DNA of 42,224 nucleotides from a virus. Numbering within the stretch: the first letter of the stretch is position 1; each line of letters begins with the position of its first letter. The notes under the pieces are model-generated. The model was not told where the DNA came from. It worked only from the letters and a program-made list of their open reading frames with translations, and made no database searches. The position numbers and the translations under genes were made by a program. The DNA is taken from the IMG/VR virus record IMGVR_UViG_3300005264_000013, positions 1 to 42,224 of that record, one strand, 5' to 3'. This document shows, piece after piece, positions 11,871 through 41,111 of the stretch.

Positions 11871-11893
11871 ACTGGTTTATATATCTTTCTATT
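11871..11893 (-). promoter_or_regulatory. archaeal BRE/TATA promoter of HNH gene
   Basis: Leftward AGAAAGATATATAAACCAG, about 40 nt before the ATG at 11853, abutting the stop of the upstream gene. Confidence 0.7.
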
Positions 11894-12114
11894 TACCAAT
11901 CTTGTTTTATATCTTTAATTTCATTCAATATCTTTTCTAACTTATTCATTTCTTTCTGTTCTTGTAATACATAGTTATTGTTGCCATTGTAAGGTTTCAC
12001 ATCACCAGTACAATTCAAATCGATACATTTATCATTCTTTTCTTCAACCAAAGTATTATAATTAGCTGATGTGTAACTATAACTTCCACATTTAATACAT
12101 ACATATTCATTCAT
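11893..12114 (-). CDS. small zinc-finger-like protein, 73 aa
   Basis: CIKC (residues 6-9) and CIDLNC (about 30-35) suggest a zinc site; the C-terminal half is a charged helix. GGTGA ribosome site. Function unknown, probably nucleic-acid binding. Confidence 0.7.
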   Translation of the reverse strand: MNEYVCIKCGSYSYTSANYNTLVEEKNDKCIDLNCTGDVKPYNGNNNYVLQEQKEMNKLEKILNEIKDIKQDW

Positions 12115-12135
12115 CTTATTTCACCCACTTCTTTT

Positions 12136-12263
12136 TTAATATTCATAATAACTTAGTTCTTTTAAAGTTTTTTCTCGTTCTTCTTTTCTACACAAATCTC
12201 CATATTCTCTTGCTTGTCCTGTTGTAACAACAAAAGGCATACCGTCTGTGCAATTACATTCAT
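12136..12263 (-). pseudogene. small Cys-containing gene with probable frameshift
   Basis: Two frames compete. The ATG at 12263 has a perfect AAGGTGA site and directly follows the upstream stop, but its frame gives a poor 33-aa peptide ending at 12162. The -1 frame, open from just upstream to 12136, reads like a real protein (ECNCTDGMPFVVTTGQAREY, then GDLCRKEE) but has no start until the ATG at 12240. Insertion of one base after the first ATG would join the good start to the good frame. This is either a frameshift mutation, a sequencing error, or a 34-aa gene starting at 12240. Confidence 0.45.
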
Positions 12264-12482
12264 CTACTTCACCTTGTATTTTAAGTCCTTTAGTTTATCT
12301 CTTGCATCTACAAGACTGTAGTACTCATTGATACTATCGTACATACTATCTATGTAATCCGTATGAAATGCACTTGTATATCCGAATGGTGCGTTGTTCA
12401 GTATTTCATAGTCATTCTCAATCTCATCTTTGACATCTTCCATCTCTCTTGAAATCTTTAATATCTTTTTATCTAAATTCAT
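12264..12482 (-). CDS. helical acidic protein, 72 aa
   Basis: The start is placed at the third in-frame ATG (MNLDKKILKISREMEDVKDE) because GGAGATGA sits 7 nt before it and the upstream stop is 1 nt away; starts up to 12497 are possible. Helical, acidic, Tyr-rich. Unknown function. Confidence 0.6.
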   Translation of the reverse strand: MNLDKKILKISREMEDVKDEIENDYEILNNAPFGYTSAFHTDYIDSMYDSINEYYSLVDARDKLKDLKYKVK

Positions 12483-12483
12483 T

Positions 12484-12675
12484 TTATTCATCTCCATTCA
12501 TTATTCTATATTCGAGTAATAATTTCTCTCCTTTCTTTTGATACTTATATCTTGGAGTCTGGTGATTCTCACACCATTGTTCTCCACAATACTTGCAAGG
12601 ATGTCTCCATTCATACACATGATTTCTTATAATTTTAAAAAACAAATTTCTAAAAAACCATTGTAATTTATTCAT
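12484..12675 (-). CDS. small zinc-binding protein, 63 aa
   Basis: The start is set at the ATG at 12675 (MNKLQWFFRNLFF), overlapping the stop of the gene at 12668-12796; an extension to 12711 overlaps that gene in full. CKYCGEQWCENH (about residues 27-38) is a compact C/H-rich zinc motif, flanked by a hydrophobic N-terminus and a basic C-terminus. Unknown family. Confidence 0.6.
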   Translation of the reverse strand: MNKLQWFFRNLFFKIIRNHVYEWRHPCKYCGEQWCENHQTPRYKYQKKGEKLLLEYRIMNGDE

Positions 12676-12796
12676 TTGACATAACCATAAAACAAAATTT
12701 TTCTTTATCATTAGTAACAGATATGCTTTTATCTTTTGGTAAACAATTTAAAAAATCTTCAAATTGTTTTATCAGATGAGTTTTAGTTTCATTCAT
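12668..12796 (-). CDS. hypothetical protein, 42 aa
   Basis: MNETKTHLIKQFEDFLNCL. ATGA overlap with the stop of the transglutaminase-like gene and an 8-nt overlap with the next gene, consistent with coupled translation. No motif. Confidence 0.6.
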   Translation of the reverse strand: MNETKTHLIKQFEDFLNCLPKDKSISVTNDKEKFCFMVMSNE

Positions 12797-13578
12797 TTTA
12801 ACAAATACTCTCCATTCTCATCAAACACATAAGCTGTATAATTATAATTCTGATGTCTTAATGGATTTTTTATGAACTCATTGTTTTTCTCTGGATAGAT
12901 ACTTGATTCTATTACTACCCAATCATTAACATACTTTGATACCCAAATATTATTAAGATGCCATTCTCCTGCAACATTACAATAATGTAGCTTTAACTTA
13001 TTAACTTCATTTGGAAACCATTTCTTTAATCCTGCTAATGCTATATGATAAAAGAACATAGCAGAACCATCACAATCATCATCTAAGACATTATCAACAA
13101 CAATGTTATCGTGTTGTTCATTAAAAGAAGCCCAATACTCTTGTTTACCATATTGGTATTTATCTAATTTATATTTATCAATCCCTTCAACATATTTGAC
13201 AATCTTAAATATCATAGCATCAGAATCAACAGGTTTAGATTTATATATTTTCTCTAAATAAATATTTATTAATTGTTCATCCTCTAAAGTAGTTTTTAAA
13301 AACTTGTGTGCTAACTGATAACTCTCTTTACCATTTTGCCAAGCTTTATGATACTTCTTTTTATCTATTAAATCATAATTAACAGACTTAAATTCTTCTA
13401 AAGAATTGTAAGGATACCTTTCTTCTTCATATAATATGAGTTCATCTTCCAACTTATCACATTTATGATTTAATTCTGTTATCTTATCTTGTGAATCTAT
13501 ATATTCGTCTTTCAAATCACTTTGTTCTTTGTTAGTATATCCACCAAGTATTTTAATTATAGTATTTTTAAAACTCAT
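12793..13578 (-). CDS. transglutaminase-like cysteine protease-fold protein
   Basis: 261 aa. The N-terminal 60 residues form a charged coiled coil. The C-terminal domain carries the transglutaminase-like triad order: Cys169 in DDDCDGSA, His207 in GEWHLNNIW, and an acidic residue (Glu224 in WVVIESS, normally Asp). Phage proteins with this signature are common, but their substrates are mostly unknown. Pseudomurein endopeptidases of methanogen viruses share this fold, so a lytic role is conceivable; the lack of an export signal and the position among replication genes argue against it. Confidence 0.7.
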   Translation of the reverse strand: MSFKNTIIKILGGYTNKEQSDLKDEYIDSQDKITELNHKCDKLEDELILYEEERYPYNSLEEFKSVNYDLIDKKKYHKAWQNGKESYQLAHKFLKTTLEDEQLINIYLEKIYKSKPVDSDAMIFKIVKYVEGIDKYKLDKYQYGKQEYWASFNEQHDNIVVDNVLDDDCDGSAMFFYHIALAGLKKWFPNEVNKLKLHYCNVAGEWHLNNIWVSKYVNDWVVIESSIYPEKNNEFIKNPLRHQNYNYTAYVFDENGEYLLK

Positions 13579-13809
13579 TTATAACACCCCGAAAGGTTTA
13601 GTTCCACATTTCTGTTGATATAAGTCTTCTCGTTTATCATACAACTTATATAATTCAGTTAATGTCTTATCCATTGATTCCAAAGCCATGTTCTTATACT
13701 TGGTTGGTTTTAAATCTAAAGCTAACTTGTATTCTTCTTTGATTAAATCTTTCGTTGCTTCAATTCCTCGTTGATTTCTACATAACATCATTTCTAAATT
13801 CTCTATCAT
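13579..13809 (-). CDS. helical hypothetical protein, 76 aa
   Basis: All-helical, charged (MIENLEMMLCRNQRGIEATK). It overlaps the upstream stop by 4 nt and ends 1 nt before the transglutaminase-like gene. Unknown. Confidence 0.65.
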   Translation of the reverse strand: MIENLEMMLCRNQRGIEATKDLIKEEYKLALDLKPTKYKNMALESMDKTLTELYKLYDKREDLYQQKCGTKPFGVL

Positions 13810-14099
13810 TCTTCAAACCCCATTTTCTTTTTAGGTACTACATTGTATCCATAACTTCCAGTGGTCTTATTTTTATAAAATTTTAATGTGTTATCAACTT
13901 TATATAATTGAATGTTGTGTACTGTTTGTGTTGCTTGTGATATAGTTTTATTATATATACTAATATCTTTATATAATTCATTAACCATTTCTTGCATAAG
14001 ACCTATAGTATTTTGTACTCCTAAAATGTAACCACTCTCTGAAATGCTTACTAAATCATCTATCTTTTCTTCTAATGTATCTTCTGTTTCCTCAGTCAT
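13806..14099 (-). CDS. helical hypothetical protein, 97 aa
   Basis: Acidic N-terminus (MTEETEDTLEEKIDDL), helical centre, basic C-terminus. ATGA overlaps on both sides. Unknown. Confidence 0.65.
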   Translation of the reverse strand: MTEETEDTLEEKIDDLVSISESGYILGVQNTIGLMQEMVNELYKDISIYNKTISQATQTVHNIQLYKVDNTLKFYKNKTTGSYGYNVVPKKKMGFEE

Positions 14100-14578
14100 T
14101 TTCTCCCACCTATGGAGATAGATTCATTACTTAATCTACCTCGTATCCTACAATTTATAATACCATTATAAAATTTATCTGATAATAATACATCTCTATC
14201 AAATTGTTCTTTTGCTTCATAATATCCACATTCCCATCTACCTTTACAAAGTCTTATAATCTTCCTATCAAAACATAGATGTCCTAAGTTGTCTAAGTCT
14301 TCATTAAGTTCATTACAAGAACCCCAGTATGTTTTCCAATCAGATTCTTTCTTGATATGAGTTCTGGTTGTTCTTGTGTTTAGAATACGTTTACCATTTT
14401 TATCTTTAAGATGTTTTCCATCCTTCATCTTAAATTTAGTTGGTTTCTTTTTTTCTGTTCTCCAGAAATGTTTTCTACCTATGTATTTTCTACCATTCAT
14501 ATTATTAGTAATCTCATAGATAAAACCAATGTTCTCTTGAAGTTCTTTTTCACTTGGTAAGTTAATCCATTCATTCAT
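14096..14578 (-). CDS. GIY-YIG-type endonuclease
   Basis: 160 aa. GFIYEITNNMNGRKYIGRKH (residues 18-37) is the GIY-YIG core with the catalytic Tyr and Arg. ESDWKTYWGSCNEL is a block conserved in Seg-like phage endonucleases, and a Glu in EAKEQF is the likely metal ligand. A dedicated BRE/TATA promoter lies 30 nt upstream, as for the two HNH genes. Likely a free-standing homing or DNA-processing nuclease. Confidence 0.85.
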   Translation of the reverse strand: MNEWINLPSEKELQENIGFIYEITNNMNGRKYIGRKHFWRTEKKKPTKFKMKDGKHLKDKNGKRILNTRTTRTHIKKESDWKTYWGSCNELNEDLDNLGHLCFDRKIIRLCKGRWECGYYEAKEQFDRDVLLSDKFYNGIINCRIRGRLSNESISIGGRK

Positions 14579-14590
14579 AGAATTGTTTAA

Positions 14591-14618
14591 GGTATACTTG
14601 TTTATATATCTTTTGGTT
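14591..14618 (-). promoter_or_regulatory. archaeal BRE/TATA promoter
   Basis: Leftward AAAAGATATATAAACAAGTA with the TATA centre about 30 nt from the ATG at 14578, predicting a near-leaderless transcript. Confidence 0.75.
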
Positions 14619-14623
14619 TGTTT

Positions 14624-14776
14624 TTAAACTAATTCTTTATGATTAGGAATATTTAAGAAATCTTTCACACATTGTGTACATAAATAATATTTGGTATCTC
14701 CAATCTTATGAAGTTTTACTGGACTTTCGTCTATAGAAATAGTTTTACATTTATCACAGAAGGAAACAATACCCAT
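14624..14776 (-). CDS. zinc-ribbon mini-protein, 50 aa
   Basis: MGIVSFCDKCKTISIDESPV, then YLCTQCVKDFL: a complete CxxC/CxxC ribbon. Lies just after the metallophosphoesterase gene across a T-rich tract. Probably a small nucleic-acid-binding factor. Confidence 0.7.
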   Translation of the reverse strand: MGIVSFCDKCKTISIDESPVKLHKIGDTKYYLCTQCVKDFLNIPNHKELV

Positions 14777-14797
14777 TTTAAAAAGAAAAGAAAAAAA

Positions 14798-16168
14798 TTA
14801 AAGTTTATATTTTCCATTGATAACATTAATCAGACTAGCTTTACCATTCGAGTAGATGAAAGCATTAGTATGTAACCAACTAGATAATCCCTGAACATAA
14901 TCTAAATCATAATCTGTAGCAGTACCAACAACATAAGTATTTCTAAACATCTCTGGTGTATGTTTATGTCCTGTTATAGATTTACCATAAGCAGCTTCGA
15001 GAGTTTTAATAGAACCTCTTGCTCCATTAGCTCCTTTATCACCATGTTGTCCTAACTGATAACCTCTAACCTTGAAGTCTTCATTACGACTTAGGAATCT
15101 AACATTACTTGGTAGTTCTCCAAAAGTTTTTAATCCTTCAACCAGTGGGTCTTGTCCTTCAATCATCTTAGTAAATAACTTAGAAGATAAATATGAATTA
15201 TGTGGTTCTTCGATAAACCTACCAGACTGAATATATCTATTTAAGAACTCATCATGATTAGATTTAGTAACTATATATTGTGTCTTAGGAGATATAGTTG
15301 AATACTCCCATAACTTATTATATACCATCTTTAATTCTTTTTCTAATGATAGTTGTCCTTTTAATCCTTTTTTACTTCTAATAACATAATCATTCATTTC
15401 GTGATGATTAATACTTGAACCATTAAATAAATCATGAAATATAGCAAACTTTGGTTTATAATGTCTTAACATTTCTTGATTAACTTTTTCAACTTTCTTA
15501 TTAGTTTCTCCAACGTGTGTATCCATTAGTACAATAGCATCAACAGAAGACTTACTCATTTTCTTATTGAGAGAATAATCTAAATCCATGAACTTACCAT
15601 TGTTTAATGATTCAACTTGTCTAAAATGAAAATCTTTATTACCATTACATTCTACAATAGTAAAACCATATTGATGGTCTCTTTTTGCTATTTGTCCTAT
15701 TCTATTAGTAGTTCTATAATTAGGTTCAGTACAAGCTCCTGTTGTTATCAAAGCTTTAGGTAGTTGTCCTACACTATTTGGAATAATCTTTAATGCTTGT
15801 TTCGGTGATGCAAAAATAGTAGATATATCATTCTGAGCAAATCTTGCCAGACCTGTTGTTGGAATGATTTGTTGTGGTCTAATAGCATAGTTAGAAATCT
15901 TAATACGCTTACTTAGAATTGTATCTCTATTAATAATTTCATACTTATCATCGTTCTCATAAAAGTATTCATCTAAGTCAGTTTCTTTTATAGACTTACC
16001 AGCCATAGGTAATATATAAATTTTGTCAACATCTTGATATTTAGCATACACTTCTAAGTTGTGTAAAAATTCTTTATTTACATTAGCTTCTCTTTGTGCA
16101 GCAGTCACAATATATTTCATTCCATTCACACTCTTCTTAATAGTTTCTTCTAAGTTAATTGTAATCAC
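14798..16168 (-). CDS. metallophosphoesterase, T5 A1-like
   Basis: 456 aa. The C-terminal two thirds carry the calcineurin-like metal ligands in order: MDTHVG (D216, H218), HDLFN (D246), SNHDE (N304, H305), GQHGDKG (H375) and GHKHTP (H401, H403). The overall pattern resembles the A1 early protein of phage T5, linked to host DNA degradation, and related phage nucleases (recognition from memory). The start is GTG at 16168 with weak ribosome-site support; an ATG 16 codons in is possible. T-rich sequence follows the stop. Co-directional with primase and RecB-like nuclease, so a nucleolytic or recombination role fits. Confidence 0.82.
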   Translation of the reverse strand: MITINLEETIKKSVNGMKYIVTAAQREANVNKEFLHNLEVYAKYQDVDKIYILPMAGKSIKETDLDEYFYENDDKYEIINRDTILSKRIKISNYAIRPQQIIPTTGLARFAQNDISTIFASPKQALKIIPNSVGQLPKALITTGACTEPNYRTTNRIGQIAKRDHQYGFTIVECNGNKDFHFRQVESLNNGKFMDLDYSLNKKMSKSSVDAIVLMDTHVGETNKKVEKVNQEMLRHYKPKFAIFHDLFNGSSINHHEMNDYVIRSKKGLKGQLSLEKELKMVYNKLWEYSTISPKTQYIVTKSNHDEFLNRYIQSGRFIEEPHNSYLSSKLFTKMIEGQDPLVEGLKTFGELPSNVRFLSRNEDFKVRGYQLGQHGDKGANGARGSIKTLEAAYGKSITGHKHTPEMFRNTYVVGTATDYDLDYVQGLSSWLHTNAFIYSNGKASLINVINGKYKL

Positions 16169-16212
16169 CGAATAATTTAATTCAGTCCTTTCTTCAATAG
16201 GATTCTCCCTAT

Positions 16213-17067
16213 TTATCTATAATTTCTAATTTCTTCAAAGATGTCATAACCATTAACATCAAACCATTCTTTTACTTCACTAAACAAAAATCTTCTTGGT
16301 TGTAGCTTTGCCCATTTAACCCAACCATTAGTTCCAGCATAAAGATTTGTATGTTCAAAATCATTATAATTTACTGATAATTGTTTTCTAAATGAATCTG
16401 TGTTTAAATCTCTATTAACACATTCAATAATAGCATTTTTAAATAATACATTATGCATCTCTGTTTTATATTCAAAATGGTTTAATAACCATCTAATCAA
16501 CCATGTGTTATCATAAATAATATCACATTCTTTTGATTTGTTTTCTTTATGATATTTTACAATCTGTATTGCATCATGTACTAATTTTGGTTCAAGATAA
16601 TTTCTAATATCTCCATCTGAATTTGTTGATACTAACTCCATAACATTCTTATGCTTAAAATGTGGTTTATTTTCCATAGCAATAAGATGTCCTTGTGTTC
16701 TTGCAGTAGAACAATCAGCTTCTGACCATTCAAAATATTTATCAAAGAATAGAGTTATATATTCTCTTCTCACTTCAACATCAAGAGCTTCTAATCCAAC
16801 AACTCTATATAGATGAATATGTGGACTTCTACCTTTAGCATCATAAACAAAGTATTTATAACCATTAGCTTTTAATCTTCTAAGACTTATACGAACTAAC
16901 TTATCAGCAAAATTTCTATCATTTGTATCAAATTCAATAACAATTTCATCATCCATGATACTTCTAAGATTATCTGTGTCCTTTCTTGCTCTATTAGTTC
17001 TTGTTTCATTAGTTTTACTAACAAATACAAGATTTCTACTATCGATTAGCTCATATATACTTTCCAT
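16213..17067 (-). CDS. archaeo-eukaryotic-type primase (PrimPol-like)
   Basis: 284 aa. AEP motif I is seen as VIEFDTND (D47, D50), motif II as GRSPHIHLY (S81, H83, H85), and a downstream acidic residue in EADCSTARTQG (D118) is the likely third metal ligand. The C-terminal part is helical without a helicase. It overlaps the upstream nuclease gene (TAATG). Expected to make primers for the PolB encoded downstream in the same operon. Confidence 0.85.
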   Translation of the reverse strand: MESIYELIDSRNLVFVSKTNETRTNRARKDTDNLRSIMDDEIVIEFDTNDRNFADKLVRISLRRLKANGYKYFVYDAKGRSPHIHLYRVVGLEALDVEVRREYITLFFDKYFEWSEADCSTARTQGHLIAMENKPHFKHKNVMELVSTNSDGDIRNYLEPKLVHDAIQIVKYHKENKSKECDIIYDNTWLIRWLLNHFEYKTEMHNVLFKNAIIECVNRDLNTDSFRKQLSVNYNDFEHTNLYAGTNGWVKWAKLQPRRFLFSEVKEWFDVNGYDIFEEIRNYR

Positions 17068-17894
17068 TATAACATCTTCTCTATTTTTATTTTATGTTTG
17101 AAGTCTCTTGCTGCTTCTGAGTCTTCTTTTGCTAATTCATACACTTCTTTAATCTTTTTTTGTACAACATTTATCAACCATTTGATTTGTTGTGTGTTGT
17201 GAGCATCTACTCTGAAATAATATTTCTGACAATATTTAAGATAGTCAACTCCCAACCATTCCACTTTATGACCTTCTTCTTGTAGAAGTAAAGCATAAAT
17301 CATTAGTTGAATATAATATTCTGTGTGAAATGTTGTTCTTGTTTTGCTTGAAGTCTTATAATCTTCTGGTACAACAGACAACATAGTATTCATAACATTA
17401 GACATCTTATGAAATTTATCTTTTGTGAAACAAGCATCTACATAACCATGTATCTTTAACTCTTTATTTTCTGCATGATACTCTTTCCATTCTGGTGAAT
17501 TATATTCAAATGCTTTCTTAGCACCATATTTTCCTTCAAGTCTTTTAGTTTCTTCAACCCATACTTGTATATATTTAGTAAGATACTCTTTTATGATGTC
17601 TTTATTCATAATATCATTTTCCATCTTAGTAATTCTTTCTGAGTTGTCTATATATTTAGTAAATAATTCTGAAAACCTTCTAGTAGCAAACTGACTTATA
17701 TTTTCATCATCCTTTGGTTCTTCTGTAAAGAAGTCTTCATTGAATGAATGAGTTGCATGACCAGATGCAAAATAAATATTATCATCTTGTTCTTTACCAA
17801 GTACATATCTATCATACCATTGTTTATAATTAAATAGGAATGATGTTATCTCACTTGGTGAGTTCATCTCTCTCGGTTCTATAATTTCTGTCAT
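17067..17894 (-). CDS. Cas4/RecB-like PD-(D/E)XK nuclease
   Basis: 275 aa. The N-terminal SPSEITSFLFNYKQWYDRYV matches the opening of the PDDEXK_1 family. Catalytic signature: G45-H49, GYVDA (D153), EDYKTSS (D178, K180) and YIQLMIYAL (Q196, Y200). None of the cysteines characteristic of the Cas4 iron-sulfur cluster is seen. Probably a recombination exonuclease. Its promoter overlaps the end of the preceding gene. Confidence 0.85.
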   Translation of the reverse strand: MTEIIEPREMNSPSEITSFLFNYKQWYDRYVLGKEQDDNIYFASGHATHSFNEDFFTEEPKDDENISQFATRRFSELFTKYIDNSERITKMENDIMNKDIIKEYLTKYIQVWVEETKRLEGKYGAKKAFEYNSPEWKEYHAENKELKIHGYVDACFTKDKFHKMSNVMNTMLSVVPEDYKTSSKTRTTFHTEYYIQLMIYALLLQEEGHKVEWLGVDYLKYCQKYYFRVDAHNTQQIKWLINVVQKKIKEVYELAKEDSEAARDFKHKIKIEKML

Positions 17895-17908
17895 AATATT
17901 CTCTAAGA

Positions 17909-17934
17909 CATACTTGTTTATATATCTTTCGTTT
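17909..17934 (-). promoter_or_regulatory. archaeal promoter overlapping an upstream stop codon
   Basis: Leftward GAAAGATATATAAACAAGTA with the TATA centre 28 nt from the ATG at 17894. The TAA of the gene at 17918-18085 is part of this TATA box. Confidence 0.75.
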
Positions 17935-18085
17935 CTAATTCAAAATCATATAAGATTTCATTGACATAATTCAATATTATAGCTTTCTGTCTTTCCTGTT
18001 CAAACTCATCTACTGAATCTATAATAGAATCTATTGACATAGCTATTTGTTTCTTATTAAACTTAATTTTTTCTTCTTTGTTCAT
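17918..18085 (-). CDS. helical acidic protein, 55 aa
   Basis: MNKEEKIKFNKKQIAMSIDS; all-helical. It overlaps the end of the Nmad1-like gene by 23 nt, and its last codons double as the TATA box for the nuclease gene. Unknown function. Confidence 0.65.
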   Translation of the reverse strand: MNKEEKIKFNKKQIAMSIDSIIDSVDEFEQERQKAIILNYVNEILYDFELETKDI

Positions 18086-18386
18086 TTTTATCACTTAGAT
18101 AACATTGTAGTATGTTTGCATAATTTCTTAAATCACTTAATGTGTCTAAAATAGATTCATCTTTCACTGCAGCTTCTTTCGTTAATAAATTACCAATTCT
18201 TGCCATCTTATCAGACATTCTAACTAAGATTCCTTTCTCTGCAGAACAAACACCTAATGACTCAACAACTCTAAAATTTGAGAATGGGTCTGTGTTTGTA
18301 GCATAGTCTTGATTCTTCATTTTTACAATGTCTATATCTTTCTTAGCATTGGTTTCTAACATTTCAATAAAGTCTTTTCGTATCAT
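18063..18386 (-). CDS. Nmad1/DUF1599-like protein (nucleotide-modification associated)
   Basis: 107 aa. The pattern KNQDYATNTDPFSNFR, then GILVRMSDKMARIGNLL, then DESILDTLSDLRNYANIL matches the DUF1599/Nmad1 family often found in phages beside nucleotide-metabolism or DNA-modification genes (family recalled, not searched). Helical with acidic residues as in MazG-like folds; the biochemical role is inferred only. First gene of the leftward replication block, preceded by a late-type promoter core about 27 nt upstream. Confidence 0.8.
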   Translation of the reverse strand: MIRKDFIEMLETNAKKDIDIVKMKNQDYATNTDPFSNFRVVESLGVCSAEKGILVRMSDKMARIGNLLTKEAAVKDESILDTLSDLRNYANILQCYLSDKNEQRRKN

Positions 18387-18401
18387 ATATATAATAAAGA
18401 T

Positions 18402-18431
18402 GTACTACTATATAATATCTACTATCTTTTT
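18402..18431 (-). promoter_or_regulatory. late-type promoter core before 18386
   Basis: Leftward AGATAGTAGATATTATATAG then TAGTAC. It matches the core of the promoters at 27700, 37913 and 41743 but lacks a clear GATTTCAAG upstream element. TATA-like centre about 27 nt from the ATG. Confidence 0.6.
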
Positions 18432-18670
18432 CTGATAAGGTTTATAAACCTAAATTTATCCATTAAAAATACAGGATGCGTCAGGAACATATATAATAAC
18501 ATATTGTTGTTAATAAAAGACTATGGCTACAACTCCTATCCCCTCAAAAAAACATATACACCTTCGGTGAGCTGTTATTTTTTTATTCGTGAACCTTATA
18601 GAGAAAGAGATTTAATTTACACTCATGGCACTTATCACACCCTAATCTTTATGTGATGTTTCGTAAAGTC

Positions 18671-18685
18671 GGTACTTTGTGGTAT
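18671..18685 (-). repeat. 15-bp motif shared with 42194-42208
   Basis: Leftward ATACCACAAAGTACC followed after 7 nt by CGAAA. The same 15 bases with CGAAA at the same spacing occur, in the other orientation, at the window end. Confidence 0.6.
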
Positions 18686-18758
18686 ATTAGTTTCATATTC
18701 TGTGATTATCAGAATCAACTTCAACTGACCTTTACTTGAGTTACTTTTAAAAGTGGTA

Positions 18759-18786
18759 AGGTATAACATCCGAAGACATTATACCT
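18759..18786. other. 8-bp stem-loop
   Basis: AGGTATAA (18759-18766) pairs perfectly with TTATACCT (18779-18786) around a 12-nt loop. On the + strand CTTTT follows. Possible terminator, operator or part of an RNA. Confidence 0.45.
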
Positions 18787-18855
18787 CTTTTACATAGTTT
18801 TATTTATTTGTCTCTTCGAGTTCGATAAAAAACAAACTTCTATTATGTGTATATA

Positions 18856-18890
18856 CTTACTACTATATAATATTATGTAGGAAAAACTCT
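18856..18890 (-). promoter_or_regulatory. orphan late-type promoter
   Basis: Leftward AGTTTTTCCTACATAATATT then ATATAGTAGTAAG: the same core and spacing as the promoter of the protease gene (37913-37953). No gene lies to its left for about 470 nt, so it may produce a non-coding RNA or a long leader. Confidence 0.5.
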
Positions 18891-18972
18891 ACGACAACAT
18901 CATATTGCATTTCGATGTGAGTAATACAAGAATAACTAATATGTATTTCTTTATAAGTCTTTTGGTTTTAAA

Positions 18973-18999
18973 AAGGAAAGTTATATAAACAAGTATACC
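18973..18999 (+). promoter_or_regulatory. archaeal BRE/TATA promoter (rightward)
   Basis: GGAAAGTTATATAAACAAGT with the TATA centre about 30 nt before the ATG at 19013, predicting a leaderless transcript. Confidence 0.75.
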
Positions 19000-19012
19000 A
19001 TATATATCTAAT

Positions 19013-19537
19013 ATGATACTAAAAAAACTTATGTTTAAGATTAGTAGTTACTTCTACTTTAGGTTAAAAAATAAAATGTTTAGGTGGGACAAGATGATAC
19101 ATGATAGACTAATAGATATTGTTCAGCATGATATACACTATAAAGCACATATTGCTGGAGAAGAAGTAATTACAGTGAGAGAATTTAAGTTTTGTTATAA
19201 GAAGAATACATCTTTATATCAGTCAGACTATTTCAAATCTGGTATGAAAAAATTCATTAATGGAGAGATGGATTTATTATCTATATATCCAGAAAGAAAA
19301 GAATATGAATTATATGAAATTAAAACAACTAAGACAAAGAAAGCTATGACAAAAGCAAAGAAACAAGTTGGAATAGATAATGGTCTAATTAATTATATAA
19401 AGACACATAAAGGAGTAATTACAGAATTAGATGATATAATCAATGACGAGTATAAATGTGCTGGTAAGAACGTAGTATATAATAGAACAGAAGGTGCTAA
19501 GCTTACAGATACATATTATAAACATAAATATAAATAG
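19013..19537 (+). CDS. putative PD-(D/E)XK nuclease
   Basis: 174 aa. GEMDLLSIYP (D87) followed by YELYEIKTTKTKK (E102, K104) and KAKKQV (Q118) fits the D-ExK-Q active site of Hjc/VRR-like restriction-fold nucleases. The N-terminal 25 residues are basic and hydrophobic. The start is the first ATG, placed correctly for a leaderless message; later ATGs (19031, 19076) are possible. First gene of the only multi-gene rightward operon. Could be a Holliday-junction or structure-specific nuclease. Confidence 0.65.
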   Translation: MILKKLMFKISSYFYFRLKNKMFRWDKMIHDRLIDIVQHDIHYKAHIAGEEVITVREFKFCYKKNTSLYQSDYFKSGMKKFINGEMDLLSIYPERKEYELYEIKTTKTKKAMTKAKKQVGIDNGLINYIKTHKGVITELDDIINDEYKCAGKNVVYNRTEGAKLTDTYYKHKYK

Positions 19538-19549
19538 GAGATGAGGGAA

Positions 19550-19702
19550 ATGAAAGAAGGAGATATAACAACAATTGTTCTACACGATTATTACCCAGAA
19601 GGAGATGTTGATGTAGAAGTAGAAGGAATAATCATTGAAGTTAACAATAATAGATATACAGTGGACTGTGGTGGAGTATTATATGAGGTAGAAGATGATT
19701 AA
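19550..19702 (+). CDS. acidic beta-rich protein, 50 aa
   Basis: MKEGDITTIVLHDYYPEGDV, then alternating beta strands and CGGVLYEVEDD; looks like a small barrel. GGAGATGA lies 5 nt before the ATG. An in-frame ATG at 19541 lies inside this site and is less likely. Unknown function. Confidence 0.7.
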   Translation: MKEGDITTIVLHDYYPEGDVDVEVEGIIIEVNNNRYTVDCGGVLYEVEDD

Positions 19703-19859
19703 AGAAGAATTAAACCTAAAAATAATAGAAGCAGAAGACAAAATAGAAAAAATATTAAGAACTTTAGAAGAAGAAACTGGTTTACAAGTAAATGATTACA
19801 TAATAGAAAGATATTGTGATAATGCTTTTATGACTAGTTTTTCTTTAAAATTGGGGTGA
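19695..19859 (+). CDS. helical protein, 54 aa
   Basis: MIKEELNLKIIEAEDKIEKI; coiled-coil-like. Overlaps the upstream gene by 8 nt with GAGGT in front. Unknown function. Confidence 0.65.
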   Translation: MIKEELNLKIIEAEDKIEKILRTLEEETGLQVNDYIIERYCDNAFMTSFSLKLG

Positions 19860-19870
19860 TTTAGATTAAA

Positions 19871-20062
19871 ATGTATGATAACTTAAGGATAGTAGAGCCA
19901 TCTGAGATGGAAGATTATGTAGTTCATTATGATGGAGAACAAATACCAAACATAGTTGGTATGATTTTACTTTTTGATACAGATATTATTGATAAAGAAT
20001 TAAAGACAAGAAAAGATAAGAATTGGTCTAAGGTTGGAACAAAACATTGGGCAGAGAGATAA
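19871..20062 (+). CDS. hypothetical protein, 63 aa
   Basis: MYDNLRIVEPSEMEDYVVHY; acidic N-terminal half, basic tail. GGGGTGATTT serves as ribosome site. No family recognised. Confidence 0.65.
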   Translation: MYDNLRIVEPSEMEDYVVHYDGEQIPNIVGMILLFDTDIIDKELKTRKDKNWSKVGTKHWAER

Positions 20063-23117: not shown

Positions 23118-23765
23118 CTATGCTCGGTAAGTTTTATTATAAATTTCTTTGATAAATGCTTCTGTTGGTTCTGTTGTTCCCATATCAAACATCATAAAAT
23201 CAGACATTTGTCCATTTAAATATCTATTATTAACATAATTTCCTAATTTTAAAACTACATTTGAAGCAGAAACATCAGTTCCAAACGAACCAACCACCAT
23301 ATTTGCCCAATCTCCATTTAAAACCATTTTAAGTCCTTTACTGGTAGTATTCCAACAAGCGAAATGATACCAAACTCCAGTGGTTAATCCACCAAAATTA
23401 GCTGCAGCAGTTGTCGAGCCTCCATAAAACCTAAGACCCCCACTTCCGTCCCAATATCCAAAATGGGTAGTTGTTGAGCCTCCACGAATCTCAAACGTAG
23501 CACCCCTTGTAATTACATCAAATTTTACCCAACCACAAAAAAAAGTAATACCTGTTGCAGTATTTATAGACCTCGTTGTTGTTACTGCAGTATAATCATT
23601 ACCATCAAAGTCTAAAGCTCTTTTTCCATTAAAAGGAATCTTAATTAGAGTTGCACCAGAAATTGTTGAGTTATAACCATTACCACTATAATCATAAATA
23701 GTACTCCCACTAACTGGTGCTTCTGGATACCATAATACTAAATCTGGGTTTTGTGAATTAATCAT
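23118..23765 (-). CDS. LamG/concanavalin-like jelly-roll protein
   Basis: 215 aa. Single LamG-like domain: DLVLWYPEA...YDYSGNGYNSTISG, ALDFDGNDY, GITFFCGWVKF, WYHFACWN, LKMVLNGDW, NRYLNGQMSDFMMFD and TEAFIKEIYN. Such domains bind carbohydrates and occur on tail fibres. Paralogous in plan to the next gene, joined to it by an ATGA overlap. Probably a receptor-binding appendage. Confidence 0.8.
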   Translation of the reverse strand: MINSQNPDLVLWYPEAPVSGSTIYDYSGNGYNSTISGATLIKIPFNGKRALDFDGNDYTAVTTTRSINTATGITFFCGWVKFDVITRGATFEIRGGSTTTHFGYWDGSGGLRFYGGSTTAAANFGGLTTGVWYHFACWNTTSKGLKMVLNGDWANMVVGSFGTDVSASNVVLKLGNYVNNRYLNGQMSDFMMFDMGTTEPTEAFIKEIYNKTYRA

Positions 23766-24478
23766 TCTGTTACCTCTTTCATGAATGGATAAATGTCTTT
23801 TGTTAATTCTAATTGATATAATTCTTTTATTTCATCTGAAGATAAAGCTCTCGACCATATTTTTGGTTTATCAATAATTCCATCCCAAGGATAAGCGGTT
23901 ATATTACCACCACCAATTGCTAAAGTATATGATGCTGAACCTACTTGAGTGCTCGTTGCTGTTTCAGTATTATCAATACTTCCATTATAATAAATCTTAA
24001 CTGCATCAGCAGCTGTTGTTCCATCCCAAGTATAAACCCAATGAGACCAACTATCAACAGGAATACTGGTAGAACTCTGTATTCTTGAAGCAATACTTCC
24101 ATCTGCTTCAAAAATATCAAGTTTATTAGTAGTAACATTACTAACAAAAACCGCAGTACCTCCACTTCCTCCAAGATTAGTAGTTGTCATAATGATGTTA
24201 AGGTCTGTTAAACTATCGGGTGATAACCAAAAGCTGATTGATTTAGTGCCCATAGGTATGATAGAATCATCCATAGTAATCTTATCATTACTACCATCAA
24301 AATAATATGCATTATCACTTATACCAAATCTATCAGTAGTCAGTGTTGCTCCACTTACAGTCGTAGTATTTTGTCCTATAAAATCAAGTGCATCTCCTTT
24401 CATATCTAATGCAAAAACACAGTCTTCAAATAAGTCTGTATATCTTGTATTTTGTTGTGGATTAACTATATTAACCAT
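23762..24478 (-). CDS. LamG/concanavalin-like jelly-roll protein
   Basis: 238 aa. Same domain plan as its neighbour: DCVFALDMKGDALDFIGQN, AYYFDGSNDKITM, SISFWLSPD, SHWVYTWDG, VKIYYNGS, WDGIIDKPKIWSRALSSDEI. Likely carbohydrate binding on the tail. The pair suggests duplication followed by divergence for adhesion specificity. Confidence 0.82.
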   Translation of the reverse strand: MVNIVNPQQNTRYTDLFEDCVFALDMKGDALDFIGQNTTTVSGATLTTDRFGISDNAYYFDGSNDKITMDDSIIPMGTKSISFWLSPDSLTDLNIIMTTTNLGGSGGTAVFVSNVTTNKLDIFEADGSIASRIQSSTSIPVDSWSHWVYTWDGTTAADAVKIYYNGSIDNTETATSTQVGSASYTLAIGGGNITAYPWDGIIDKPKIWSRALSSDEIKELYQLELTKDIYPFMKEVTE

Positions 24479-29941: not shown

Positions 29942-31348
29942 TTAATTTCCTGTCGTACTATAACTATTTAATGGTTGTAATTCTATTGTTTTATTCCCAA
30001 TAGTAATACTAGTCATTTTACCAGCCTTAGCTTTTTGTTCTGCATAATATTTATATGCATCTCCAGCAGCATAAATTTCATTGGTTTCATTACCTATTGT
30101 TGTTAATAAAGTATCATTTACATAATCATTTAAACTAATACTTGCAGTTTCTGCTTCTCCAATTGACCCAGTTAATCCACTATTTGTATCTAACCCAATA
30201 GATGTAGTTAAATCTTCAAAAGATAAATTTAAATCCCCTATTGTACTATTTGTTGTATTAATAGATGCCAAATCAAAATCTAATTCAAATGGGGTCGTAA
30301 TTGTTTCACCATTTAATAATTTATTATATTCTGGAACATTTTCTATATCCATACCTTCTGCATTTTGTATTCCTGCTTTAACAATTGTAAATATAATTGA
30401 AAATGTGAATCCGATGATTGCACCAATTAATGCACCAGCAGGGCCCCCAACAATAAATCCAACTAAAGCTGCACCAAAAGTTGTTGCCAATGTTCCTTTA
30501 ACTACTTTACCCCAGTCTGTATCTAAACCTTTAAATGCGTCACTTAAAGTTTTAACCCCTAAGTATGTAAGAGCAAATCCAACAGTAAGTCCAATAATAA
30601 TTGCACCAGTACTTAACATCATAGATGCCATATATGGAGATATTCCCATCGCAATTGCTGCATCCTTTGCACTCTTTGCTACAAATAAAGTTCCAGCTAG
30701 ATAATCAGCAGCCATTTTTAAAGTTACTAATTGACCTATTGTTGTCATAATTGACCCTAAACCAGCCAATGCTCCAACGACAGCTATAAAAGCAACTCCC
30801 CAACCTGGATGGTCGCTAAAAACATTTGCAATTGCTTCTAATCCAGTTGCGATACCTATTAATGCTTTATTAACACCTTCACTATCTGCAAAAGCACTAA
30901 ATATATTATATTTTAATAATTCAAACGAACCAGATAAGCCTAATATTCCTCTGTTAAATTGTGAATTTTTATCAGAAATATCTTTATAAGACTGACTCAT
31001 AGCTTTAAACATTCCACCAAAAGTTCTTGATAATGCTTGACCACCAAAAATCATAGACAAGAATCCAAAGTTCATACCCTTTTGAGACTTAATAACTCTT
31101 TTCATCTCTCTATTAGTATATCCAACTGATTTACCGACTTCAAACATAGACTTCTTAAATTGTCTAGCTCTAGTAGACCCCCTACCAAAAGCTCCTGCTA
31201 ATTGGTTGTATTGTTTTCCAAGACCAAAAATATTTTTATCTTGTTGTCCTAATTCCTTTGTTGATTTTGTAATATTATCAACATTCTTTTTTAAAGCTTT
31301 ATCAACAACATCTAATACAACTTTTACATTATAAGTAACTTCTGGCAT
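29942..31348 (-). CDS. tape measure protein
   Basis: 468 aa. N-terminal helical, Lys/Gln-rich region (KKNVDNITKSTKELGQQD) followed by several hydrophobic segments (about residues 180-330, e.g. WGVAFIAVVGALAGLGSIM and GPAGALIGAIIGFTFSIIF) typical of tape measures. Located just after the frameshifting chaperone gene. Its ATG overlaps the stop of the frameshift frame (TAATG). The short length implies a tail of roughly 70 nm by the common 0.15 nm per residue rule. Confidence 0.88.
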   Translation of the reverse strand: MPEVTYNVKVVLDVVDKALKKNVDNITKSTKELGQQDKNIFGLGKQYNQLAGAFGRGSTRARQFKKSMFEVGKSVGYTNREMKRVIKSQKGMNFGFLSMIFGGQALSRTFGGMFKAMSQSYKDISDKNSQFNRGILGLSGSFELLKYNIFSAFADSEGVNKALIGIATGLEAIANVFSDHPGWGVAFIAVVGALAGLGSIMTTIGQLVTLKMAADYLAGTLFVAKSAKDAAIAMGISPYMASMMLSTGAIIIGLTVGFALTYLGVKTLSDAFKGLDTDWGKVVKGTLATTFGAALVGFIVGGPAGALIGAIIGFTFSIIFTIVKAGIQNAEGMDIENVPEYNKLLNGETITTPFELDFDLASINTTNSTIGDLNLSFEDLTTSIGLDTNSGLTGSIGEAETASISLNDYVNDTLLTTIGNETNEIYAAGDAYKYYAEQKAKAGKMTSITIGNKTIELQPLNSYSTTGN

Positions 31349-31578
31349 TATTTTTTCCTCTTTTTTCTTTCTTTTTCCATCAAAGCATTTTTTCTGACTA
31401 AATAATCATATTTTGATGTTAATTTAAACCAATCATAGTCTCCATGTATATCAACACAAAATTCTGATTCAACAAAATGAATCATATTATTTAATCCTAA
31501 AACAACCTTTTCTGGTGTGTTATTTTCCTCTGCTTGACAATATTTATCAAACTCTTGTTCAGTCAGAGGTCTATTCAG
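31348..31578 (-). CDS. tail assembly chaperone, frameshift extension (gpT-like)
   Basis: A 76-residue open frame (LNRPLTEQEFDKYCQAEENN at its start, a Lys/Arg-rich end) with no start codon of its own. It is reached by -1 frameshifting from the gene at 31575-31910, making a 187-aa fusion. It ends overlapping the tape measure ATG. In lambda the equivalent gpGT binds the tape measure during tail assembly. Confidence 0.85.
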   Translation of the reverse strand: MNRPLTEQEFDKYCQAEENNTPEKVVLGLNNMIHFVESEFCVDIHGDYDWFKLTSKYDYLVRKNALMEKERKKRKK

Positions 31579-31910
31579 TTTTTTGGCTTTTCTAGGCTCT
31601 CATAATCACTACGTTTAGCTTGTTTTGTAGCAATACTAATTTCTTTTGTAAATTCAGCAAAATTAAAAGCTAGTAATAAATCAATTTCTTCATCAGATAA
31701 AGAGTTATCTCCATTTTTTAATCCGAGTTTCATAAATTCTATAGTATTATTATATTTATCATCATAAGAAGCATCTGGACTTAGTTTAACTTTTAAACTA
31801 TCAAAAATTTCTTCTGCTTTGTATTTAATATTAAACTCTTGTTTATCTATAACAATAGTCATTCCTTCTCCAATTGCTTTCTTAATTTCATTTAAATCCA
31901 TTTCATTCAC
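31575..31910 (-). CDS. tail assembly chaperone (gpG-like)
   Basis: 111 aa. Helical, acidic, starts MNEMDLNEIKKAIGEGMTIV. Its last codons CCA AAA AAC before TGA contain the -1 slippery heptamer A_AAA_AAC. Position between major tail protein and tape measure is the standard gpG location. Overlaps the upstream gene by 4 nt. Confidence 0.82.
   Translation of the reverse strand: MNEMDLNEIKKAIGEGMTIVIDKQEFNIKYKAEEIFDSLKVKLSPDASYDDKYNNTIEFMKLGLKNGDNSLSDEEIDLLLAFNFAEFTKEISIATKQAKRSDYESLEKPKN
31578..31584 (-). promoter_or_regulatory. -1 ribosomal frameshift site
   Basis: A_AAA_AAC in the correct phase directly before the TGA. Eight nt downstream CCTCTG can pair with CAGAGG about 30 nt further on, giving a GC-rich stem at the usual spacing. 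A short TTGA/TCAA pairing lies within the loop. Confidence 0.85.
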
Positions 31911-35403: not shown

Positions 35404-35441
35404 ATAAAAAAATAAAAAAAAAACTTAAGGTTACCCTTAAG
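35404..35441 (-). terminator. terminator overlapping the major capsid stop
   Basis: CTTAAGG (35424-35430) and CCTTAAG (35435-35441) with a 4-nt loop; leftward the stem is followed by ten T. The capsid TAA is inside the stem. Confidence 0.8.
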
Positions 35442-36342
35442 CAGTTTTCATAACAATAACTCCTTCATTTCTTTTGATTTTTACACCGAAAGCTTCAAAG
35501 TAATGGAAAGTCCATGCTCTTTGTCTTTTAGTTTCTCTTTCAAATTCCATAACTGGAGTTAATTTTTGTGCGTAATAGAATGCTTTATCTGATAAAGCAA
35601 TTGCGTTACTTACTTCGATAGCATCTGCTGCTCCTTCGTCAGTAATTTGTACGTTATTTGATTCGATTACTTTAAATCCTAAATATTTACCAATAACTCC
35701 GTTTTTGATAACATCCATTTCGGAAGTTGAGTTAGTGTAGAATTTAGCATCGTTGTATAATTTGTAAGATTGGTCTGGACTAATTACTAAGTAACTCATG
35801 TTTAAGTTATCTTTTGCCATTTCAACTTTACATTTTACAGCTTGTTCGTACATATCTCCTGCTCCTGCTATGATGTTAGCGTCAGTATATCTAGTTGTAC
35901 CAGTACTGATTGGATAAATTGCGTCAGAAGTACTGTTAAGTAATTCAGTCATAATTTGTACATCTCTGTTTTCTGCTAAAGCTCCTGCAGCACCAATTCT
36001 AACTCTGTCCCATACGAAATCAAAGTTTTCACTTAAAGTTTCCATTGAGATTTGTTTAGCGTCTCCGAACCATGCTAAAGTTAAATCAAAGTTAGCGTAG
36101 TCTAATGCACTAATTGGTGTGTCAGTTCCTTCTGTTAAAGTAGAAGCTGAGAATTGTGTTTCTGTAAAGAAAGTAATAGTTTTACCAGCTTTTCCTAGTA
36201 AGTAACTAGAAACATCGTCTGCTAAAGGTCTAAGTTTTTCTGCGTTGTATAAGTGTTCGATTACTCTTTCATCATAAACTTCTGGAACTACTCCATCAGT
36301 TGATGCTGCTGCTCTTTTATATGCGTTTGCGTCTAAAGCCAT
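35437..36342 (-). CDS. HK97-fold major capsid protein
   Basis: 301 aa. LLGKAGKTITFFTETQFSAS, ISALDYANFDLTLAWFGDAK, QISMETLSENFDFVWDRVRI, then a P-domain-like region with YLVISPDQSYKLYND and a final FHYFEAFGVKIKRNEGVIVM are typical of N4-gp56-like HK97 capsid proteins (recognition by pattern). GGTGA ribosome site. Followed by a terminator. No long N-terminal delta domain, consistent with separate scaffold genes. Confidence 0.85.
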   Translation of the reverse strand: MALDANAYKRAAASTDGVVPEVYDERVIEHLYNAEKLRPLADDVSSYLLGKAGKTITFFTETQFSASTLTEGTDTPISALDYANFDLTLAWFGDAKQISMETLSENFDFVWDRVRIGAAGALAENRDVQIMTELLNSTSDAIYPISTGTTRYTDANIIAGAGDMYEQAVKCKVEMAKDNLNMSYLVISPDQSYKLYNDAKFYTNSTSEMDVIKNGVIGKYLGFKVIESNNVQITDEGAADAIEVSNAIALSDKAFYYAQKLTPVMEFERETKRQRAWTFHYFEAFGVKIKRNEGVIVMKTA

Positions 36343-37972: not shown

Positions 37973-38143
37973 CTAAGGATTTACGACATCATATTTTTCT
38001 TGTTGTTTTAATGTTGCTACAGACTCTCGAAACTCCTCTCTATTATTAAATTCTTCCTTCTTTCCTTTATTCCAATTTCTTAAAGGTCTAAAGTATCCTA
38101 CAACTCGTGAATATACTTCACAAGGTTTACCACAGGTACTCAT
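37973..38143 (-). CDS. stand-alone NrdD-type glycyl-radical domain
   Basis: 56 aa (start overlaps the portal stop in ATGA). CGKPCEVYSRVVGYFRPLRN, then WNKGKKEEFNNREEF reproduces the C-terminus of class III anaerobic ribonucleotide reductase: the glycyl-radical loop RVxGY (Gly16) and the following RP..NWNKGKxxEF block. No catalytic subunit or activase is seen in this window. By analogy with YfiD/GrcA, which replaces damaged pyruvate formate-lyase radical domains, it may repair or complement host NrdD; this is inference. Small NRDD-type proteins exist in databases, so novelty lies in the context. Confidence 0.75.
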   Translation of the reverse strand: MSTCGKPCEVYSRVVGYFRPLRNWNKGKKEEFNNREEFRESVATLKQQEKYDVVNP

Positions 38144-39462
38144 TCTTTAGCCTTAAAGTTTTCAATACCTTTATCTTGTGGTTGTCTACTTTCGTGTAAA
38201 TCACTATTAGGTGGGAATTGTTTTTTCTTCTTAAAAGGATTTATCTTATCAAGAATACCTTCTTTAGGTTCTTCTTCAGCAGTTTGTTCTTTCTCTTGAG
38301 CTTCTTGAGCCATATCAAACATATCTTCTGGTAATTCCATGCCTTTTGAGTTTAACCAACCTAATACTTTCTTCTTATCTGCACCTTGAGTCATAAGTTT
38401 CATAGCAATATCTACTAATTCTTTATCATCTTTAAGGTCAACTTGTTGATGAGCTATTTCTACTCCTTCAACACCTATTAAAGGCATAAGTTCTGCATTA
38501 ATTTCTTCATCATATTCTTCTAAGAATGAATATAGACTCATTTGGAAAGCATATCTTGCTTGAATCTCTGAGTTACTTCTATTAGAATTATCTACAGTTC
38601 CAGAAATAATTGGTGGTACTTGTAATAATGTTAAGATTTGCATTCTATAATATCCCAATAAATCAGTAAGATAAGCTAATTTAGATTCGTCATCTAATTT
38701 ATTAACTTGTACTTGTTCTTCGGATACAGTCAATAACATTTTCTTTCTATCTTTCATTCCTTCTTTGATTAATTCTGATAATATTTCTACATCATCTACA
38801 CTAATACTTTTGAAATGTAAGTTAGTTTTAAACATATTTTGTTCAAACAACCATTCTATATGTTCTAATATAAGTTTTTTAGTATATAATAACTGTCTTA
38901 ATGTTTCAATGTTACTTGAACCCCAAATACTTGAAGTATATTGGTCTACAGTTAATTTAATCATGTCTTTACCAGCAATCCATGTTGGACATTTGGAATC
39001 TGTCTTAGAAGTTACATCTTGTTTAAATTTATAAATAGTTCCTGTTTCACTAACATCAACTTCAATGTCTGGTGTATCTGGTACTTTGAATCCTTTGATT
39101 TCAGTTTTTTTAGAATCAGTATATACGATTTCTATGAAACAATTAGAATAAGTCATTAAATTTCTAAAGATTTGTTTTTGTACTTTAACCCATTTAAGTC
39201 CTTTGAACTGTTTAGTTACTTTCTTAACATTTTCTTCACTTTCTCCTTCAAAGAAATGTCCTGTTCTTGTTAATGCGTTAACCTTAGCTTCAATAGCTCC
39301 TCTTAACTCTGGGTCATCTAATACTATTTCGACTAACTTAGCCATACTTGATTCTGCTCTACTCCAACCTCTATTTGGTTGTCTTGTGTTTGGTACTGTC
39401 TTATAATAATCCTTAATAATTGATTTTCCAGCTTTTGCTGTTACACTTTCTTTCTTAGCCAT
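38140..39462 (-). CDS. portal protein
   Basis: 440 aa from the ATG at 39462 (MAKKESVTAKAGKSI), which has GGTGA 5 nt upstream; a GTG 3 codons earlier is an alternative. Portal signatures: DPELRGAIEAKVNALTRTGH, a wing region with SNCFIEIVYTD, IETLRQLLYTKKLILEHIEW, LGYYRMQILTLLQVPPIISG and SNSEIQARYAFQ. Acidic and basic C-terminal tail. Follows the terminase genes as usual. Confidence 0.88.
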   Translation of the reverse strand: MAKKESVTAKAGKSIIKDYYKTVPNTRQPNRGWSRAESSMAKLVEIVLDDPELRGAIEAKVNALTRTGHFFEGESEENVKKVTKQFKGLKWVKVQKQIFRNLMTYSNCFIEIVYTDSKKTEIKGFKVPDTPDIEVDVSETGTIYKFKQDVTSKTDSKCPTWIAGKDMIKLTVDQYTSSIWGSSNIETLRQLLYTKKLILEHIEWLFEQNMFKTNLHFKSISVDDVEILSELIKEGMKDRKKMLLTVSEEQVQVNKLDDESKLAYLTDLLGYYRMQILTLLQVPPIISGTVDNSNRSNSEIQARYAFQMSLYSFLEEYDEEINAELMPLIGVEGVEIAHQQVDLKDDKELVDIAMKLMTQGADKKKVLGWLNSKGMELPEDMFDMAQEAQEKEQTAEEEPKEGILDKINPFKKKKQFPPNSDLHESRQPQDKGIENFKAKE

Positions 39463-39474
39463 GATTTTCACCGT

Positions 39475-39614: not shown

Positions 39615-41111
39615 TTAATATGTTATAATTGTTAATTTTGTTTTACTTTTAATCTCTAAATGTTCCATACAAGCCATAACGAATGAATCTATCATATCAT
39701 CAGTATAACCTTTCTCTGGTTTTAAGTCTCCTGTAAAATTAAGAAACTCTTCCTGTAAATCTGGGTCATAATAACTCTTAATTCTATATTGAAAACAAGC
39801 TTGTTTAAATAGTCTATAAAAGTCAGCCTTTTGACCACGAAATACTACTTCTTTGTAGTTAAAACCTTTCTTTTTAAACCATGAGTAAAATGCAGAACCA
39901 CCACCTTGTGAATCTACATACCATTTAATTATGTTTGGAAATCTTCGAGATATGTCTAAGATGTCAGCCATTAATTCTGAATCACCACCAACTGGGTATC
40001 TCTTGTGATATAGTCTTATATATCTATTGTTTGCTTTGTCATATTTTACTACTGTAATTACACTTCTACTAGTAGTACTACCACCAAAGTCTATTGCTGC
40101 ATACGCTTCTCCACTATATTGTGTTCTGAACGAATGGTCTCCTCTAAAGATTTTATCAACTTCATTCTCTTTATGGAAGTATGCTTTACGTTTTGATACT
40201 AATTCTGAGAGATACTCTTGACGGAATGAATCTCCCCATCCCTTTTCTTCGTATTCTCTCCTTGTTTCTTTAATCTCATCTAAGTATTCTTGGTCTTTAC
40301 GATAGTAATATGGCATCCATACAAGTTTAAACCTTGTTTTATGGTCGTCAACAGGCATTAAGTCATAGTATAACCCCGATGTACCATTAGGAGTTGTTGC
40401 ACAGAATACTTTTGATTTATTATCATCAGTAATAATAGGTCGTACTGCTTCTTTATAAATCTTGTACTCATCATTTGAACCATTCGCATAATCTCTCCAG
40501 AATGCTAACTCATCCATGAAGATAATTGAAGCTCCTTTACCTCTTGCTTTAGGAGTTGGTGCAAATACTCTTATTGTGTTCCATTTACCATTACCAAAGA
40601 TACTAAATTGTGTGTTATTGTTTTTAGCTTTATCTTTTCTGGTAGGTAATCGTGATGTGAAATATTTATCTCCAAGTTGTCCTTTAAATACTCGTTTGAC
40701 ACGTTCATCTCCTTCTTGAAACATCATATTGATTTCTTCAATGTAAGACTCTGCTTCGTCTTGAACGTGTGCTATAACAACAATCTTCGTAGACCTGTCT
40801 AAACCTTTAGGATATTTATTATAATTTAATGCCCATGCACCAAATACTTTCTGGTCTGTAGATTTACCACTTCGTCTCGCCATTAAAGACATAACGAATC
40901 TATGTTTCTTCATCATATCTAAATGATAAACTTGGTAATCTCTAAGTTTAAATCCGAGTTTAAAGTATGCAAAATAAACTGGATGGTCTTCACAAGCTGC
41001 TAGTATTGGATTCTTTGAATCTTTATACTTCTCTGTGATTATTTTTACATCAAACCAGTCTTCATAGTTATCTATAAACTCATCTGGTATTTTCGTATAT
41101 TCAGTTCCCAT
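39615..41111 (-). CDS. terL: terminase large subunit
   Basis: 498 aa. ATPase: Walker A ARRSGKST (78-85), Walker B SIIFMDE (D200, E201), coupling CATTPNG. RNase H-like nuclease: AAIDFGG (D341), WYVDSQGG (D400) and YTDDMIDSF (D472, D475). Packages DNA into the prohead. Overlap and order with the small subunit and portal genes are standard. Confidence 0.95.
   Translation of the reverse strand: MGTEYTKIPDEFIDNYEDWFDVKIITEKYKDSKNPILAACEDHPVYFAYFKLGFKLRDYQVYHLDMMKKHRFVMSLMARRSGKSTDQKVFGAWALNYNKYPKGLDRSTKIVVIAHVQDEAESYIEEINMMFQEGDERVKRVFKGQLGDKYFTSRLPTRKDKAKNNNTQFSIFGNGKWNTIRVFAPTPKARGKGASIIFMDELAFWRDYANGSNDEYKIYKEAVRPIITDDNKSKVFCATTPNGTSGLYYDLMPVDDHKTRFKLVWMPYYYRKDQEYLDEIKETRREYEEKGWGDSFRQEYLSELVSKRKAYFHKENEVDKIFRGDHSFRTQYSGEAYAAIDFGGSTTSRSVITVVKYDKANNRYIRLYHKRYPVGGDSELMADILDISRRFPNIIKWYVDSQGGGSAFYSWFKKKGFNYKEVVFRGQKADFYRLFKQACFQYRIKSYYDPDLQEEFLNFTGDLKPEKGYTDDMIDSFVMACMEHLEIKSKTKLTIITY

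Follow-up and report, generated by a model that had tools for sequence, protein, structure and literature searches.

A candidate programmed -1 frameshift in the tail chaperone genes of an AT-rich, probably archaeal tailed virus

Directly upstream of the tape measure gene of the virus IMGVR_UViG_3300005264_000013 (IMG/VR), two overlapping frames occur, of which the second lies in -1 relative to the first. How would this second frame be expressed? The question was examined in the whole 42,224-nucleotide stretch (positions 1 to 42,224 of the record), hereafter called the window, and the coordinates of the features are collected in Table 1.

The window carries the head and packaging genes of tailed viruses, namely those for terminase, portal and an HK97-type head protein, and its gene order (head, connector, tube-like, small gene, G, T, tape measure) matches that of tailed viruses. 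Family searches with G and T returned nothing that identifies either protein; the gpG-like gene had no Pfam match and a weak match to phrog_4408 (E 0.03), and an AlphaFold model of G, built with no alignment, was uninformative (pLDDT 50). Because neither protein has an identifying family match, the roles of both were inferred from position. The downstream gene probably encodes the tape measure protein, as suggested by its position, by the weak match of the window's own ORF to a phage tape measure (E 0.3) and by the weak tape-measure matches of its counterpart in a distant relative, G002 (IMGVR_UViG_3300027753_000001). Elsewhere in the window, two adjoining genes with laminin-G-like (concanavalin A-like) domains (23118-24478) lie beside a 950-aa tail fibre-like gene, together forming a probable receptor-binding module, and a Family B DNA polymerase (8305-11097) is split by an intein (PF14890; weak LAGLIDADG match).

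Table 1. Features of the window and of the corresponding G002 region
Feature	Position	Strand	Basis or remark
Tape measure protein (probable), 468 aa	29942..31348	(-)	Position, synteny with G002 ORF 14884-16311, weak phage match
-1 frame T-like extension, 78 codons + TAA	31348..31584	(-)	No ATG, GTG or TTG in first 33 codons
Predicted stem-loop CCUCUG...GCAGAGG	31527..31569	(-)	8 nt 3' of heptamer; MFE -13.4, z about -3.4
Slippery heptamer A_AAA_AAC	31578..31584	(-)	In phase, immediately 5' of TGA
gpG-like tail assembly chaperone, 108 codons from ATG 31901	31578..31901	(-)	Position between tail tube-like gene and tape measure
Small gene, 83 aa	31907..32158	(-)	Between tail tube-like and gpG-like genes; phrog_28887, E 5e-4 (unknown function)
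Probable major tail (tube) protein, 211 aa	32214..32849	(-)	Position only; no family match
HK97-type major head protein	35437..36342	(-)	phrog_267, E 8e-19
Portal protein	38140..39471	(-)	PF04860, E 7e-11
Terminase large subunit	39615..41111	(-)	phrog_2, E 8.5e-25
A1-like DNA transfer protein homologue, 456 aa	14798-16168		phrog_1745, E 4.5e-100; common in bacteriophages
Near-identical archaeal-type promoter motifs (AAAGATATATAAACAAGTAT), n=7	3959, 4864, 8279, 11869, 14594, 17910, 18977		
G002 G-like ORF	14338-14676		Tail region, upstream of T-like ORF
G002 T-like ORF, 68 aa	14673-14879		Own ATG in ATGA overlap; -1 frame relative to G-like
G002 tape measure ORF	14884-16311		Weak matches, mostly annotated tape measure proteins; syntenic with window 29942..31348

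The shift site and its surroundings

The minus strand reads ...GAA AAG CCA AAA AAC TGA ATAGA CCTCTG... at the end of the gpG-like ORF, where the heptamer abuts the TGA stop (31577-31575) at zero distance. Because the window is A-rich with 29% GC, in-phase slippery heptamers are common in it (71 in 10,827 codons), and the rarity of in-phase A_AAA_AAC was rejected as an argument, four copies being observed versus about five expected. The heptamer by itself therefore carries little weight; what is unusual is the combination of features at one site, where a heptamer abutting the stop coincides with both the longest -1 opening and the strongest predicted downstream fold among the 71.

The -1 frame is open from 31584 to 31351, comprising 78 codons counted from the heptamer or 76 after AAA AAA, and its TAA stop (31350-31348) overlaps the tape measure ATG by one base (TAATG). 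The runner-up -1 opening, 75 codons long in gene 2142-2444, enters an ORF with its own ATG. The coding score of the -1 frame was +0.222 per codon, compared with a mean of -0.416 and a maximum of 0.153 for off-frame windows of the same length, and its first 33 codons alone scored +0.223, a value that no more than 0.25% of off-frame windows surpass. Judged by codon composition, the T frame is protein coding. Downstream of the heptamer, a spacer of 8 nt (UGAAUAGA) leads to the predicted stem-loop (MFE -13.4 kcal/mol, z -3.4 to -3.5), which was equalled by 0-2 of 200 shuffled sequences and belongs to the most stable 0.55% of 52-nt windows on the strand and to the most stable 0.22% in the late region. 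Stimulatory structures of this kind often, though not always, accompany G/GT-type frameshift sites.

These results bear out the observations of a preliminary description of this locus, which had reported an in-phase A_AAA_AAC directly before the gpG-like TGA, a 76-codon -1 frame reaching the tape measure ATG with no start of its own and a CCTCTG/CAGAGG stem 8 nt downstream; its comparison to the logic of lambda G/GT also appears well supported by the sequence, the coding signal, the RNA fold and the gene order. The fusion it proposed was retained and its length revised. The 187 aa given there assume a start at GTG 31910, nine bases outside ATG 31901, whereas the latter is preceded by an AGGTGA ribosome-binding site and is therefore the likelier start, giving a fusion of 184 aa.

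Programmed -1 frameshifting that produces a G/GT pair, with a gpGT fusion of about 184 aa, is in our judgement the best explanation of these features and a probable one. In this siphovirus-type tail module, most ribosomes would terminate at the TGA and release the 108-aa gpG chaperone, while the stem-loop would pause a minority of them. We infer that the paused ribosomes slip one base back on A_AAA_AAC, replacing Lys-Asn by Lys-Lys, and that reading would then go on through CTG AAT AGA... to yield the gpGT fusion, which would end at the tape measure start. The ratio of G to GT would be set by the efficiency of slippage. If the roles are lambda-like, G would cover the tape measure protein, with the T part serving to recruit tail tube protein.

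Host evidence and the search for relatives

A AAAGATATATAAAC motif family that resembles an archaeal BRE/TATA box in form occurred in seven copies, versus 0.11 expected, and two of the seven sit 30 nt before ATGs that have no ribosome-binding site, as in leaderless archaeal genes. Sigma-70-like sites showed no enrichment in positions 1-20000. Judging from the promoters and the leaderless genes, an archaeal host is likely, not proven. Counting against it is the A1-like protein, which is found mainly in bacteriophages and whose nearest genome homologues lie on MAG contigs assigned to the CPR bacteria Candidatus Buchananbacteria and Portnoybacteria. The earlier assignment to an archaeal-type virus thus gains from the promoters and leaderless genes but is weakened by this gene. 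Compared with the proteins of HCTV-2 (Haloarcula californiae tailed virus 2, KC292028), a haloarchaeal siphovirus, those of the window have a less acidic and more basic character, which argues against a halophile. Apart from the seven motifs, a second repeated motif (TACTAGTATATAATAT, a 40-nt family) occurs at 18394, 18849, 27691, 37906 and 41735, with several copies between genes, and possibly represents late promoters.

Searches for close relatives found none in IMG/VR with the G, head, terminase and A1-like proteins, and none in GTDB genomes with the terminase. Degenerate patterns for the terminase and the head protein retrieved unrelated records or none, the portal and head proteins matched no phage records, and a two-sequence terminase profile run over 83 further records gave no more kin, with faint matches in three of them. 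One record (L001) was rejected as a relative, having the A1-like gene alone in common with the window. The sole true relative found was G002, a distant one reached through the A1-like protein (41%). It resembles the window in the terminase (about 28% identical, E 9e-31), the head protein (25%, E 1e-11) and the portal (E 2e-28), and the probable tail tube protein aligns with the G002 gene in the same place (26%). G002 also carries TTTAAATA boxes at similar distances. Among its head genes, between portal and head protein, lies a 242-aa ORF (7326-8054) that looks glycosyltransferase-like by eye.

The G002 junction and the alternative explanations

As in the window, the tail order of G002 is G-like, T-like and tape measure, with the T-like ORF in the -1 frame. 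Unlike in the window, this ORF starts at its own ATG, the slippery heptamer is absent at the junction, and upstream of that ATG the T frame stays open for no more than 2 codons, all of which indicates that G002 does not use this signal. Relatives lacking the heptamer, or with the two frames encoded separately from good starts, had been named beforehand as evidence against the frameshift; G002 is such a relative, but it is too distant to decide the matter. The G and T proteins of the window do not align with those of G002, and for this reason the contrast was read as probable lineage variation rather than a false signal in the window. It nevertheless modestly lowers confidence in the frameshift and raises the rival considered next.

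T could instead be a separate protein, made by termination and reinitiation at the CTG (31578) that overlaps the G stop as CTGA and is the only possible start early in the -1 frame, the A run then being incidental. The ATGA at the same junction of G002, where the relative frame of the T-like ORF is also the same and its length is similar (68 versus 76 codons), speaks for this reading. CTG, however, is a poor start, an ATG is available as the start in the larger window genes examined, two or three excepted, and no AGGTG-like ribosome-binding site precedes this CTG. Reinitiation also leaves unexplained why an in-phase heptamer lies right at the stop in front of so strong a fold, and why the identical CAAAAAACTGA recurs in HCTV-2; we consider it unlikely. 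Another explanation is that a one-base deletion in the A run, whether introduced in sequencing or assembly or a genuine mutation, split one continuous ORF. The junction is indeed a homopolymer of six A's, where one extra A would join the frames, but no other gene in the window looks frameshift-broken, the site, its place against the stop and the fold are as frameshift signals predict, and the frames of G002 are likewise separate and likewise in a -1 relation. A deletion is accordingly very improbable.

An A run would in principle also let RNA polymerase, not the ribosome, slip and add the extra base. Known cases of such slippage mostly require longer runs, which counts against it, and the in-phase heptamer and the stem point to the ribosome, leaving polymerase slippage only a very slim chance. 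Similarly slight is the chance that the -1 frame is unexpressed and open by accident, G alone being enough. Seventy-six random open codons are rare yet possible (p 7e-5 to 1.6e-3), and the T of G002 does not align with the -1 frame; against this, the coding score lies far above that of off-frame windows, and the frame occupies precisely the space up to the tape measure ATG.

The two viruses may belong to a single lineage of archaeal tailed viruses, AT-rich and apparently non-halophilic, in which T is made by a -1 frameshift in one member and from an ATGA-coupled start in the other, the mode of expression having switched while the frame relation and the junction position were kept. We put this forward tentatively, at somewhat less than even chances. 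If true, it would count among the early instances, outside haloarchaea, of frameshifting in a tail chaperone. The contrast between the window and G002 also lets one ask whether the fusion itself or the T domain alone is needed for tail assembly.

Comparison with known frameshift systems

In lambda, a -1 frameshift close to the 3' end of G, directly ahead of the tape measure gene, yields a low level of the G/GT fusion (PMC5009743). Lambda differs from the window in its bacterial host and in that its frameshift and protein ratio have been measured, whereas the window is known from its sequence alone. A closer parallel is offered by genes 40 and 41 of HCTV-2, arranged as in the window in the order tail tube, G/GT and tape measure. 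Its gene 40 ends GCA AAA AAC TGA, gene 41 is the joined G/GT coding sequence in GenBank, and the A_AAA_AAC site has been published (PMC5009743). As in the window, this heptamer is in phase directly before the TGA, inside the 11-mer that the two viruses share, and the -1 frame reaches just short of the tape measure ATG. HCTV-2 differs in being a halophile virus of 68% GC, in the length of its T part (about 166 codons versus 78) and in its predicted downstream fold, and no sequence similarity was shown between it and the window.

Other haloarchaeal viruses likewise have a chaperone pair before the tape measure gene that a predicted frameshift joins. Tail-chaperone frameshifts of -1 are listed for HVTV-1, HCTV-1, HCTV-2 and HCTV-5, and one of +1 for HSTV-2 (PMC5009743, PMC8211752); the chaperone heptamer of Hardycor1 (-1) is G_GGA_AAT (PMC7911831), and the HF1 group has a probable +1 chaperone frameshift (PMC7230728). 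Unlike in the window, the heptamers of HCTV-1 and HCTV-5 are G_GGA_AAC and G_GGA_AAG, and that of Hardycor1 also differs, while HSTV-2 and the HF1 group shift in the other direction. Furthermore, -1 programmed frameshifting on a heptamer was experimentally shown in an archaeon for fucA1 of Saccharolobus solfataricus (PMC8211752), a cellular enzyme gene rather than a tail chaperone.

The window is a further example of the already described G/GT frameshift type, by which many phages obtain two forms of a tail assembly chaperone, and the same slip site has already been predicted in a haloarchaeal virus. The proposal in the preliminary description that the mechanism works on archaeal ribosomes is consistent with the layout found here, but the window adds little to it, as the same heptamer before the TGA of HCTV-2 was published and the -1 frameshift of fucA1 demonstrated before. 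For archaeal -1 frameshifting, a single cellular case has been shown experimentally and a few viral ones have been predicted, the latter all haloarchaeal in the literature found, so that the expected range would widen with a clean A_AAA_AAC and a strong predicted stem in an archaeal virus that is AT-rich and probably non-halophilic. The site is also compact enough to serve as a cassette in tests of slippage by archaeal ribosomes.

A comparable arrangement was observed in two methanogen viruses, psiM2 (13209-13948) and psiM100 (1195-1950), in which a -1 frame that is conserved between the two follows ORF19, a gene situated ahead of the tape measure gene. This frame is unannotated in the records of both viruses, and a literature search found no mention of it. 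In psiM2, an in-phase A_AAA_AAG leads into a 78-codon extension, and psiM100 reads AAG AAA AAG AAG at the same place. This is a probable G/GT frameshift outside haloarchaea, and the arrangement suggests that the G/GT layout extends to viruses of methanogens.
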